A stretch of 64,000 nucleotides of DNA, from assembly GCA_028275705.1 (NCBI GenBank), contig JAPWUD010000005.1, positions 1-64,000 of the forward strand, written 5' to 3'. Position 1 is the stretch's first letter, and every line of letters begins with the position of its first letter. The notes beneath the pieces were generated by a model. That model had not been told where the DNA came from, searched no databases, and worked only from the letters and a program-made list of their open reading frames with translations. Positions 30,806-60,046 of this stretch are shown here, piece by piece. The stretch comes from Desulfurococcaceae archaeon. GTDB lineage: Archaea; Thermoproteota; Thermoprotei_A; Sulfolobales; Desulfurococcaceae. The translations under genes were made by a program, and so were the position numbers.

Positions 30806-30915
30806 GCCGCCGTAGCTCAGCCCGGCAGAGCGCCGGACTCATACGGGTTGTGTGTAGTAGCGGAGTCGGCCCAGGGGAGATCCGGTTGTCCCGGGTTCAA
30901 ATCCCGGCGGCGGCA
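30806..30915 (+). tRNA. tRNA-Met(CAT) with about 36-nt intron
   Basis: GCCGCCGTAGCTCAGCCCGGCAGAGCGCCGGACTCATA...ATCCGGTTGTCCCGGGTTCAAATCCCGGCGGCGGCA; intron about 30844-30879 at canonical 37/38 position. Confidence 0.88.
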
Positions 30916-55068: not shown

Positions 55069-56133
55069 CTATTCGTTTCCCTCCCCAGGCTCGTTTTCAA
55101 TGTATACATATGCTACGTCTCCGACGACAATGTAGTATTTACCCATACTCTCTGAGTATACTACAGGGGCATTGAATCTCTTAGAGATATCCTCGAAGTC
55201 TCTGTAGTTGCTAATTTGAATTAATTTGAGATTCGACTCATCTACTAAACCTTTTAGTACTTTTCTACGGGGCTTTGGCTTACTTGTAGTGTTTTTGAGT
55301 TTATATGTATTCATGGTAATGAATAGGAATGCTATTGATGCCGCACCCAGCGAAAGCGTAGAGTATAGCGTTATTTTCCTCGAATCCGCAACACTGATCT
55401 TTAGGCCCATTGGTAGGTTCAACGTGTTTTCTACACTTCTTTGAGTACTACTTGTATATGCCTCTGAAGACCCGCTTACTGTTATTACTAATATATTGTT
55501 TAGCTCATTTACACTCAGTAGCATGTATGGATTTAGATCAAATCGTTTACGCTCCCCACTCTCATATAGTACGTTAATCTCAAAACTTATAGTGATATTG
55601 ACGTCGTATCTCCTAGAGCTTACAAGTACTTCTGAGTCTATTGCTCTCACGAGGTTATATAGATCACTCATATTTAACTCTCCCTGAATTAATACGCGTT
55701 TATCTTCACTAACTACATAGGCTTTTAGTGGGAATTTTTTGCTCCAGGCGGGCGTGTTTATGGCCATTGCAGGGGTTACAGTATAGTTTATATTAGATGC
55801 TACTCCACTATATGTATCATTGTAGACTACCCATGCTATGACAAATAAATACTGGATTTTCTGCACTAGTGATAAGTAGATCATGGGGTAATTCACGACT
55901 GCGGCGTAGTCATATATCATTGAGGGCTTTACGCTTACATTATATAATATACTCGTGTTTACCTGGGCTAGTTTATACGTGTTTTTGTAGATGGTGACGG
56001 GCTCTACTCTATAGCTTTCTGCAAAGTAGAAACAGCTAATGGAGAGTAAAGCAATGAATAGAGTAGTTAGAGCTAGAAGTAGTTTTCTAGCAATTGAACT
56101 GGAGAAAATAGATTTTAAACCAATATTCCTCAA
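55069..56133 (-). CDS. DUF5305-like membrane protein, associated with TasA-like locus
   Basis: N-terminal TM, extracytoplasmic segment (YRVEPVTIYKNTYKLAQVNTSILYNVSVKPSMIYD), second TM, cytoplasmic tail; overlaps signal peptidase gene. Confidence 0.65.
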   Translation of the reverse strand: MRNIGLKSIFSSSIARKLLLALTTLFIALLSISCFYFAESYRVEPVTIYKNTYKLAQVNTSILYNVSVKPSMIYDYAAVVNYPMIYLSLVQKIQYLFVIAWVVYNDTYSGVASNINYTVTPAMAINTPAWSKKFPLKAYVVSEDKRVLIQGELNMSDLYNLVRAIDSEVLVSSRRYDVNITISFEINVLYESGERKRFDLNPYMLLSVNELNNILVITVSGSSEAYTSSTQRSVENTLNLPMGLKISVADSRKITLYSTLSLGAASIAFLFITMNTYKLKNTTSKPKPRRKVLKGLVDESNLKLIQISNYRDFEDISKRFNAPVVYSESMGKYYIVVGDVAYVYIENEPGEGNE

Positions 56134-57326
56134 TATAAAACAACCTCTTTAGCTATGTAATAGACGTAAATTAGGGATAATAAACTAAGCACTAGAGATA
56201 TCATGTTTATAAAACTGCCCGTAGTCTCCAAGAGGAGTACAGCGGGATACCCTACTAGTGGAATATTGAGAAATACCCTTCCCACCACATTGTCTCCACA
56301 AGCCCATAGTGGGTCGTTGTTTTCATTTGCATCACCCTTAGTTATAAAGCAATTGTCTCTACTAAACCCAACTACCCTATGGACGACGAGGTTAGAGTCT
56401 CCCTTGAAGACTATTATATCTCCTACTTTTACATCACTTATTGAAACAGGAGTTGAGACAACTACATCTCCAATATTGATCTCTGGAGTCATACTACCGC
56501 TTGTAATAGCGAGGAATCTAGTTCCACAAAGGAATGAAATAAGGAACCCCACTGAAATAGCTAAGCTAGCAGTAGAAATAATCTTGGAGTATTTACTTGG
56601 ATTAACAACCTGGTAAATTACTACATTGTCTAGATTAAATGGTTTTGCTACAATATACAGTACTACTGCGATAAAAATACTTTGAATTATTAATGGGAAT
56701 ATATAGCTCATTAAATTTGTATTCAATGGGAGAATCGGTGAAACCTTGTAGAATCCAGTGAAGGCCACTACATGCATGATCAGAGTTCTTAGATCATAGA
56801 TCCACGCAATAATGGACAATAACGCGTTATATGATAGTAGAGCTAGATATTTAATAAACCAGTTGATCCCCGTGGGAGGTTCCTCAAATACATAAATATA
56901 TAATGTGGTTGATACGATAGTTGCAATAATTAATCCAATTAATGGATTTGTATAGACTACACGGTTTTTTACTAGAAGTGTTCTCGTTGATTCAATGAAC
57001 AATATAGAGGATGCGAGGAGAGTAATCTTTAGTATTAGGGTTAAGGGTGAGAGAATTAAGATGTTTAATCCAATTCCAAAAATCAGTCCTGAAAATATAA
57101 AAGATACGACATAGGTGATCAAGGATAAAACCATGAACACTACTTGATAGTCACCGTGTTTTTCCATAAACTTTGCGTTAATTATGAAGCCCATTAGCAT
57201 CATGATTGATGGGATCAAGTAGTAGGCTAACCCATAGATTACCTTGAAGGACAAGAAGTAAACTATAATTGTGAAGATAAATACAATGTTGACAAATGGA
57301 AGGATACGGGTTAAAAAAAGATTCAA
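56130..57326 (-). CDS. SipW-type signal peptidase I with N-terminal multi-TM region
   Basis: FLAITSGSMTPEINIGDVVV, VGDIIVFKGDSNLVVHRVVGF, FITKGDANENNDPLW. Confidence 0.9.
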   Translation of the reverse strand: MNLFLTRILPFVNIVFIFTIIVYFLSFKVIYGLAYYLIPSIMMLMGFIINAKFMEKHGDYQVVFMVLSLITYVVSFIFSGLIFGIGLNILILSPLTLILKITLLASSILFIESTRTLLVKNRVVYTNPLIGLIIATIVSTTLYIYVFEEPPTGINWFIKYLALLSYNALLSIIAWIYDLRTLIMHVVAFTGFYKVSPILPLNTNLMSYIFPLIIQSIFIAVVLYIVAKPFNLDNVVIYQVVNPSKYSKIISTASLAISVGFLISFLCGTRFLAITSGSMTPEINIGDVVVSTPVSISDVKVGDIIVFKGDSNLVVHRVVGFSRDNCFITKGDANENNDPLWACGDNVVGRVFLNIPLVGYPAVLLLETTGSFINMISLVLSLLSLIYVYYIAKEVVLY

Positions 57327-57349
57327 TTAAACCTTCCTCGCAGGCTACA

Positions 57350-58030
57350 TTAACCTCCGGATGGAACGTAGTATTCATTCCATGCAACTGCGTCTAGCGA
57401 TATTGTGAACGACAATGTTGCCCCCTGCGGTGCTGTTTGTAGTATTGTCAAGTCTAAGCTGATATCAGCTGATTGACACGGGTGGAGTTGAACACCGAAG
57501 TTGTCTCCCCACCATACGAGTATATCTGGTTCTCCATCTCTATTTATGTCTACTTCTACTCCTTGTTGGAGTGTACCTCTGTTTATTTCGTAGTATTCAT
57601 TTCCATCGAATACGACTCTCCATATTTTTAATGGTATTGTACCATCATTGTGTACTTTGAATGCAATGTGGTTGTAATACCATGGGTATACATTATACAT
57701 TGTAATGTTCAACGTGTCCTTGTCTCCATCTCCATCAGAGTCTATTAGGGTAACAGTTGTGCATCCAACGTCTTTGTCGAGCTGTAATGCACCCGGCCCC
57801 GGTAGATATGTTGCATTCCAGTCATTTCCTGCAAAGTCACCATATCCTGGTGGTAGTCCACATGCATCTTTATATATTGCTGTACCAGACATAAATTCCC
57901 AGTCGAGTTCACCACTAGCTACGTATACATTGGCTCTTATACTTGTTAGCCACATCGCTATTCCAACTAACACCATTACACCTACGAATCCAGCTATTAA
58001 CGCATTTCGAGTGCTTTTATTCATATACAT
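57350..58030 (-). CDS. TasA/camelysin-like secreted fibre subunit candidate 1
   Basis: Signal helix then MWLTSIRANVYVASGELDWEF; VHNDGTIPLKIWRVVFDG; DSDGDGDKD. Confidence 0.7.
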   Translation of the reverse strand: MYMNKSTRNALIAGFVGVMVLVGIAMWLTSIRANVYVASGELDWEFMSGTAIYKDACGLPPGYGDFAGNDWNATYLPGPGALQLDKDVGCTTVTLIDSDGDGDKDTLNITMYNVYPWYYNHIAFKVHNDGTIPLKIWRVVFDGNEYYEINRGTLQQGVEVDINRDGEPDILVWWGDNFGVQLHPCQSADISLDLTILQTAPQGATLSFTISLDAVAWNEYYVPSGG

Positions 58031-58096
58031 ACACCTATTCGATTCATTATGGATAAGTGCCCGCTATGCACAGGCACTATTTACGCTTTTAAAAAA

Positions 58097-58669
58097 CTAT
58101 GGTACCTCGTTCCACTGTGCGAACGTGTATTCTACTTCAAACGTGTACGTTGTACGCTCCTCCGCGCCTTGCTCTACAGCGATCTTAATGCCCAGATCGA
58201 GTGTACCATCTGGGTGTATCTGCGTATTCTCTGGTATGTTTAAGTCCACTGATAGTGCTGTTGTATTCACGCCTGTTGTAGTGTAGTCTAGTAGTTTAAC
58301 TGGGATTGTTCCAATATTCTTCACTGTTAGAGTTACTTCTGGTGCGTATCCTGGATACGCATTTACGAGAGTTATATTAACTTTAACTACGTTTTGTTCC
58401 TCATCATATACCTCTGGTTCCACTATGCACTCTGCTACGTTTTTGCCCTCTGAATTATGGTATGGATCTCCAGACTGAGGGTCTGGACCTGTATCTGAGC
58501 AAGTCCAATCGACCCATGCTACTTTGACTTCACCAGTGTGTACGTATGTGTTTACTCTTAGTGTCTCCATCCACATTGCTGACGCTACGCCTATTGCTAG
58601 GAGGATTAACCCTACGAGGGTTATTCCCTTTATGTTTGTTATTCCTATCATGTTTTTACACCTTTGCAT
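58097..58669 (-). CDS. TasA/camelysin-like secreted fibre subunit candidate 2
   Basis: Signal helix then MWMETLRVNTYVHTGEVKVAWVD; VKNIGTIPVKLLDYTTTG. Confidence 0.7.
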   Translation of the reverse strand: MQRCKNMIGITNIKGITLVGLILLAIGVASAMWMETLRVNTYVHTGEVKVAWVDWTCSDTGPDPQSGDPYHNSEGKNVAECIVEPEVYDEEQNVVKVNITLVNAYPGYAPEVTLTVKNIGTIPVKLLDYTTTGVNTTALSVDLNIPENTQIHPDGTLDLGIKIAVEQGAEERTTYTFEVEYTFAQWNEVP

Positions 58670-58729
58670 GTTAGAGATACTAGGCTTTTTGTTTTAAAAC
58701 ATATCGCCTTAGTTATACATACAAACTAT

Positions 58730-59353
58730 CTAGACAAATAATACATCTCTAAGTGGTAGAACTCTTGGTTCATTGAGTGGTTTAGAAGTGGAAAAGATAT
58801 TCACAATAGAGTCAACTAGGCTCTTATTCCTAACAATTACTAGTAGTGGTATCCCAGTGTCATTTGATGCGAGGAGTGAGTAACCTAGGCTTCTAAGAGA
58901 ATACTGAGATAGGGATTTCTCATCTACTAGGAGAACTAAGTACTCACCACCTCTATATTTAATAGTCAACTGTGTATAGTCCAACCCTGTTTTACCCTTC
59001 AGAGTCTTATAGATTAATACATAGTCTTCAACACCCAGCGTCCTACTTAGTGATGGATTAGAGATCATTGAGTCATCCTTACTCAGCTCACTCCTCAACT
59101 CTAATAGCTCAACGAGGTTCCTCAGTTTCTCGAGGACTTCAAATCCCTTTGGTGTAAGAACGTAAGCAGTGTTTCTACCTTCTTTCACACATGAAACTAA
59201 TCCAATTTTAGTCATCCAGTCCAGGTACTTCTCAAGATTAGTTGTATTTAGGTTTGAGGAGTATAGTATATGTGTTTTGAGTGCTTTATCTCTACGGGCA
59301 ATATATCCAAGTATTCTCTCAACGATCTCAATTTTACTTCTGTAATTGTTCAA
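58730..59353 (-). CDS. winged-helix transcriptional regulator within TasA-like locus
   Basis: ILYSSNLNTTNLEKYLDWMTKIGLVSCVKEGRNTAYVLTPKGFEVLEKL. Confidence 0.75.
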   Translation of the reverse strand: MNNYRSKIEIVERILGYIARRDKALKTHILYSSNLNTTNLEKYLDWMTKIGLVSCVKEGRNTAYVLTPKGFEVLEKLRNLVELLELRSELSKDDSMISNPSLSRTLGVEDYVLIYKTLKGKTGLDYTQLTIKYRGGEYLVLLVDEKSLSQYSLRSLGYSLLASNDTGIPLLVIVRNKSLVDSIVNIFSTSKPLNEPRVLPLRDVLFV

Positions 59354-59473
59354 GCAATAAAACCTCTAAGTTAAATCAATGATATAGGTGTATTAAACAC
59401 CAATCAGGTATATAAATTTAACGTATCATTCATTCACTTTACAAGCATATTCGAGTACTTTGTGGTATGTACG

Positions 59474-60046
59474 CTATGAAATACGTGAAGTGATTTTAAC
59501 AGCGATCTCCGTATTACTCAACCCTAAGTTTATATAAATCCATGCAACCATTTTATAACCGACTGGAATGTGAATAGGGAGGGTACTAGAGTATCCACTC
59601 ACGGGGAGATCGCTGCATGATATACCTCCCCAGTAGGGCATATTTCCAACACCTGTTTTAATGGGTTCATATAGGTAGTATTGTGGAGTAATATTGTATG
59701 ACCCGAGAGAGTCGTTTAAAGAAATATTGATCTCAGCGAGGTCTACACCGATCTCCCCATTGTTCTCTACTACGAGGCCTATCCACATGGAGTTAACAAC
59801 AGTATTCCCTATATCTATGTACAGTGTATCATTCTTAGGCGATAAGTGTGTGGCATTGAATCCACGGCAGGAGGAATCCTGATAAGTTGCGAAGACTCTC
59901 CAAGACCCAATCTCTAGTCTAGATGGAACAATGTAGACATATACATTAGCTCTTAGAGAACTACTCCACAATCCATATCCAACGCTAACCAGCAGTGTTG
60001 CTAGTAAAGCAAGTAGCAATATGTAAGCATTATTCAACTCCAACAC
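59474..60046 (-). CDS. TasA/camelysin-like secreted fibre subunit candidate 3
   Basis: Signal helix then GLWSSSLRANVYVYIVPSRLEIGSW; LVVENNGEIGVDLAEINIS. Confidence 0.65.
   Translation of the reverse strand: MLELNNAYILLLALLATLLVSVGYGLWSSSLRANVYVYIVPSRLEIGSWRVFATYQDSSCRGFNATHLSPKNDTLYIDIGNTVVNSMWIGLVVENNGEIGVDLAEINISLNDSLGSYNITPQYYLYEPIKTGVGNMPYWGGISCSDLPVSGYSSTLPIHIPVGYKMVAWIYINLGLSNTEIAVKITSRIS

Follow-up and report, generated by a model that had tools for sequence, protein, structure and literature searches.

A candidate TasA/AbpX-type surface fibre cluster with its own membrane-extended signal peptidase in a Desulfurococcaceae archaeon

The window analysed here, the first 64,000 nucleotides of contig JAPWUD010000005.1 of a Desulfurococcaceae archaeon (GCA_028275705.1), carries between positions 55,069 and 60,046 a cluster of six genes that very probably makes a fibre of the TasA/archaeal-bundling-pilus type on the cell surface. 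The six open reading frames (ORFs) all lie on the minus strand, as do the features located within them below, and encode, in order, a divergent secreted protein C (59474..60046, 190 aa, GTG start), a winged-helix protein (58730..59353, 207 aa), the secreted proteins A (58097..58669) and B (57350..58030, 226 aa), an S26 signal peptidase (56130..57326) and a DUF5305-like membrane protein (55069..56133). This is the arrangement that a first-pass annotation of the DNA had described, and every ORF was found where it had been placed. The start codon of A is probably the ATG at 58651, giving a protein of 184 aa, rather than that at 58669, since the orthologue at the related locus L001 has no upstream methionine and a GGTG site precedes 58651.

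Neither Pfam nor NCBIfam has a curated family that matches A, B or C. Profile comparison with hhalign identified A and B as whole-length paralogues (probability 100, E 1.3e-39 over 186 columns). On the same comparison C is a more distant relative of both (probability 96, E 4.5e-9 against A; probability 93, E 3.8e-7 against B), with the similarity spanning the signal peptide, the motif that follows it and the first half of the domain. This motif, W-x2-S/T-L/I-R-A/V-N, had been reported by the first-pass annotation in three secreted proteins and was indeed present behind a hydrophobic signal segment in A, B and C, while a second one, N-x-YP-x-Y...N-x-GTIP-x-K, attributed to two proteins, was located in A and B. 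The profile E-values and the invariant residues among 29 A orthologues (W33, T45, G46, N103, Y105, P106, Y108, N118, G120-K125 and the C-terminal QWNE, with A29 and A31 nearly invariant) indicate that these shared motifs are not due to chance. Across the paralogues the consensus W-S-[ED]-[TS]-L-x-[IV]-N...TG is kept. C retains W-S-S-S-L-R-A-N-V-Y-V and lacks the TG(E/D) and QWNE hallmarks, and its orthologues are confined to near relatives.

B is distinguished by two acidic motifs. The first, DxDxDGD, is a loop of the calcium-binding type (DSDGDGDKD, 57716..57742) in which D97, D99, D101 and G102 are invariant among 22 orthologues; the second, DxxxDxxxDxxxWWGDNFG (57494..57550), is acidic and aromatic and invariant in the same set. 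Together they suggest that folding or assembly of B may depend on calcium. In a tree of 84 relatives, A (24/29), B and C stay apart over many families, so the split between A and B is old; the branch leading to C is long, and where it belongs is unsure. Viral contigs scanned with the A and B profiles contained no relative.

A link to a solved fibre was obtained from searches of the Protein Data Bank (PDB). Used as a single sequence, A matched AbpX (phmmer, E 3.7e-4), which is the archaeal bundling protein X of Pyrodictium abyssi (PDB 9sj2, 9rhp; ABPx in PMC11952670). The profile of the 29 A orthologues aligned with AbpX at E 2e-14 over chain residues 2–144, starting at the shared motif, and the B profile at E 4.3e-5. 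By these sequence matches A and B share ancestry with AbpX, and C does so more distantly. In one related genome, G075, the product of L066 8065-8727 is identical in sequence to the AbpX chain.

The first residues of the AbpX chain in 9sj2 are QWSETLSLSATISTG, exactly after the signal peptide, and in the construct 9rhp the same stretch is placed at the C-terminus. Shifting an N-terminal strand to the C-terminus is a usual route to a self-complemented donor-strand protein and, given the layout of 9rhp, we infer that the motif shared by A, B and C is the mature N-terminus and serves as the donor strand. The predicted segments lie at 58532..58573 in A (WMETLRVNTYVHTG, behind an A-x-A cleavage site and aligned to WSETLSLSATISTG of AbpX), at 57911..57952 in B (WLTSIRANVYVASG, in position and consensus like those of A and AbpX) and at 59927..59968 in C (WSSSLRANVYVYIV, corresponding in position to where the AbpX chain starts). 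Behind the predicted signal peptidase I type site of A, both the position and the consensus of the mature N-terminus equal the start of the AbpX chain.

The same searches bear on a different identity for A and B, as type IV pilins or as other parts of type IV filaments. The heads of archaeal type IV pilins are also immunoglobulin (Ig)-like sandwiches, and the A profile matched a Pyrobaculum pilus weakly (8fk7, E 0.006), with further weak matches to the Sulfolobus acidocaldarius AAP filament (8q30), an archaellum and UpsA. However, the AbpX chain is without a hydrophobic helix, so the helix is removed and not kept as it would be in a pilin, the A-x-A site before x-W is of the signal peptidase I type, and the partner enzyme belongs to the S26 peptidases and not to the prepilin peptidases; the cluster also has no assembly ATPase or platform gene. 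We therefore rejected the type IV assignment, on the missing helix and the type of peptidase, and consider it most improbable.

The relationship to the bacterial fibres is more remote. A profile of distant relatives matched AbpX at 9e-29, and the next best entries were TasA of Bacillus subtilis (5of1, E 0.024; 8aur, E 0.025). Camelysin (PF12389) is the Pfam family most often matched by distant relatives (8/26, best 0.0013), and the model for SipW-dependent signal peptides (TIGR04088) gave weak matches to seven of 29 A and five of 22 B members. TasA, ABP and ABPx are listed together as donor-strand exchanged fibres (PMC11952670). The first-pass annotation had read the locus as one for a surface or biofilm fibre; this is supported here, and the sequence homology to AbpX is a stronger support for it than the analogy to TasA alone.

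AlphaFold models were generated from the sequences of the window, L001 and L002. The model of A reached a pLDDT of 72.9 (alignment of 9 sequences) and that of C 79.6 (alignment of 3 sequences), and in both a long N-terminal helix leads to a β-sandwich of 8 to 10 strands, with the stretch at the motif between them unpacked and of low confidence. A number of results count against a fibre of the TasA/AbpX type. When the A and C models were compared with the PDB (to April 2026) by Foldseek, no match fell below 1e-3, and the 50 best included no TasA, AbpA or AbpX and only generic Ig-like sandwiches, the models having been built from 3–9 sequences; for such models the outcome neither supports nor refutes a TasA fold. 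The A, B and C proteins of the window match neither PF12389 nor TIGR04088, and C has no direct match to solved fibre subunits, being linked to them only via A and B. Furthermore, G075, the genome that encodes AbpX, has no DUF5305 match, indicating that DUF5305 is not essential for such fibres.

Because Ig-like sandwiches are common in cell-surface proteins, the generic Foldseek matches and the invariant acidic DxDxDGD loops of B could also come from separate secreted or cell-wall proteins (envelope, metal-binding or S-layer associated) that share an export peptidase and do not polymerise. Such a role for A, B and C appears improbable to us, as A and B are homologous to AbpX, a fibre protein, and the donor-strand consensus is kept across the paralogues right behind the signal peptide, where a plain secreted protein would not need it.

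The peptidase matched the model of archaeal signal peptidase I (TIGR02228) with 95.9 bits (cut-off 51.85). It is not a SipW, scoring 55 bits against NF046067, for which the cut-off is 190. Several further hydrophobic segments precede the S26 domain, in agreement with the extra membrane region noted in the first-pass annotation, and form a multi-spanning extension of about 240 residues. The expected catalytic residues S278, H316, D332 and D338 are 97% conserved (36 relatives), and the extension (family A7) is divergent, keeping G80, G84, E112, P197 and P200. Of the two signal peptidases in the genome, the long one belongs to the cluster and the other, encoded by a 151 aa frame elsewhere, is short.

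Co-occurrence of the subunits with the peptidase had been proposed as a check by the first-pass annotation and was examined across 99 related genomes. Subunit A and the extension were both present in 37 of them and both missing from 57, with A alone in 4 and the extension alone in 1 (Fisher 1.7e-21); the extension thus occurs in 37/41 genomes with A vs 1/58 without it, and the refuting pattern that the annotation had named, homologues that go without the signal peptidase in other genomes, was not borne out. In the genomes with A only (G009, G067, G085 and G086) the subunit matches lie near a contig end, where this was read. Owing to this co-inheritance with A, dedication of the peptidase to these subunits is a well-supported proposal. 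In G075, the AbpX gene is directly followed by an extended peptidase (L066 8065-10091).

The gene of the DUF5305-like protein overlaps that of the peptidase by 4 nucleotides, as the first-pass annotation had seen. The window protein itself matched DUF5305 (PF17231) with 20.6 bits, below the Pfam cut-off of 29, and its assignment is settled by its orthologues, 18 of 21 of which match the family (best 3.7e-20). It has an N-terminal hydrophobic segment, an outer region of about 200 residues, a second hydrophobic segment near residues 254–274 and a tail of about 75 residues. DUF5305 was present in 36/41 genomes with subunit A vs 5/58 without (Fisher 2.9e-16). The winged-helix protein belongs to the HTH_45 family (PF14947, 61.5 bits, cut-off 25.5), with a Sso10a-like match (NF053610) just under its cut-off. 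Its gene adjoins the cassette in most Desulfurococcales loci, and it is a probable local regulator.

Within the Desulfurococcales the order winged-helix gene, A, B, (third subunit), extended peptidase and DUF5305 is maintained with few changes. Other orders and families of the Thermoproteota have two or three subunits beside the extended peptidase, often together with DUF5305 and a small winged-helix gene, such that the succession of subunits, extended peptidase and DUF5305 recurs across the phylum. In several loci the third subunit is long, with 418–502 aa (L048 6509-8017, L049 6377-7633, L054 6696-8105, L055 9410-10801 and L067 1724-3115), and behind a TasA-like N-terminal fibre domain it carries additional domains, some of them similar by eye to SdrD/Cna-B repeats. 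One of these, L055, is from G005, a genome of the same genus. On the simplest reading, the long proteins may be adhesin-like tip subunits.

From these data we infer a pathway of cleavage by the cluster peptidase, strand donation and fibre formation, including polymerisation, bundling and the stoichiometry of the subunits, with roles for DUF5305, C and the winged-helix protein. A and B (and C) would be exported via the Sec route, and the extended peptidase would cut at the small residue just before the invariant tryptophan. This cut would free the N-terminal strand W-x2-S/T-L-x-x-N-x-x-V-x-T-G, which would enter the β-sandwich of the next subunit by donor-strand exchange, so that polymerisation would take place outside the membrane. 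At the membrane the subunits would most likely be held or nucleated by the overlapping DUF5305 protein, a functional counterpart of TapA; C or the longer third subunits may cap or tip the fibre, and the winged-helix protein may regulate the cluster.

A bolder proposal is that the extended peptidase and DUF5305 form a single machine in the membrane, linking the cleavage of signal peptides with polymerisation by donor strands, in which the extension of about 240 residues would hold the freshly cut subunit and DUF5305 would present or cap it. We regard this as rather unlikely; if true, it would be a chaperone/usher-like assembly platform, common to most Thermoproteota with these subunits. No such platform was described for TasA-type fibres in the papers covered by our literature search.

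The relative amounts of the subunits may be set in part by the spacer between A and B. A T6 tract (58091-58096) directly behind the stop codon of A is followed by a hairpin (58056..58078) that shows compensatory changes in 6 of 9 pairs among four distinct sequences. Tract and hairpin occur in the window and in the near relatives L001, L002, L033, L034 and probably L036. Folding of the spacer alone was not unusual (z −1.1), so the support for the hairpin is its covariation in near relatives, and its absence from many other loci marks it as a local device. The two elements possibly act as a partial terminator or mRNA-end element, and the hairpin suggests that expression of A could exceed that of B and of the enzyme genes. 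Among 54 window genes ranked by codon bias, a measure that is noisy for short genes, B was 1st, A 4th, DUF5305 39th and the peptidase 51st, which fits A and B as abundant products.

The same observations are relevant to whether A and B share a fibre. They are old separate groups, both with strong codon bias, the T tract and hairpin of the near relatives could uncouple their expression, and in B. cereus a single SipW goes with two camelysins (PMC10151520). It is therefore a real possibility, though one we lean against, that A and B build two separate fibres or that B and C decorate an A fibre. A and B are nearly always adjacent and co-inherited, however, which fits one mixed fibre equally well.

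Compared with known systems, the cluster that we read as a fibre locus is most readily set beside AbpX, with which it has in common a homologous mature domain, the N-terminal WSETL...TG strand, the GTIP region and a gene followed by a membrane-extended signal peptidase. AbpX has one subunit and a peptidase, whereas here two old paralogues are linked with C, DUF5305 and a winged-helix gene; B has extra acidic motifs, and A and B end in QWNE/WNEY, an ending that AbpX does not have. The bacterial TasA/camelysin clusters, tapA-sipW-tasA in B. subtilis and sipW-calY1-bc_1280-calY2 in B. cereus (PMC9674648, PMC10151520), likewise place secreted subunits beside a dedicated signal peptidase, with more than one subunit paralogue in B. 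cereus, and the weak profile link to TasA structures adds to this likeness. In contrast to them, the peptidase here is of the archaeal type with its membrane extension, no TapA was found, and DUF5305 and the winged-helix protein are additional.

Two further archaeal fibres offer parallels. AbpA of the thermophilic archaeon Pyrobaculum calidifontis is referred to as a TasA-like donor-strand pilus; it was not matched in PDB profile searches with these subunits, and paired subunits and an extended peptidase occur in distant relatives from a different family of the phylum (L115-L117). For the thread of S. acidocaldarius (Saci_0406), a thermoproteotal donor-strand fibre, the paper on it predicts a signal peptidase I site and found no chaperone or usher in the neighbourhood of the gene (PMC9715654); the solved thread subunit had no entry among PDB sequence matches up to E 10.

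A TasA/ABP-type fibre with a dedicated peptidase is already known as a kind, and this cluster is a well-supported addition to it. Apparently new are the old A/B pair, the calcium-type motifs in B, the DUF5305 partner, the covarying A–B hairpin and the adhesin-like long subunits of relatives. Our literature search, in which the AbpA and AbpX papers were out of reach and may note some of these parts, returned no description of the extended peptidase, DUF5305, the A/B pair or the winged-helix protein, and no paper mentioning DUF5305. The cluster connects AbpX, an archaeal fibre known from experiment, with a cassette of several genes that is conserved across the Thermoproteota, and points to probable accessory parts, above all DUF5305 and the peptidase with its co-inherited membrane domain. 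It thereby opens the assembly and anchoring of TasA-type fibres to testing in archaea, and lends weight to the idea that the biofilm fibres of bacteria and archaea have a shared origin.

An Rfam scan gave no matches within the cluster. Elsewhere in the window, a 110-base Rfam tRNA match at 30806-30915 on the plus strand, not reported by ARAGORN, is probably a tRNA with an intron.

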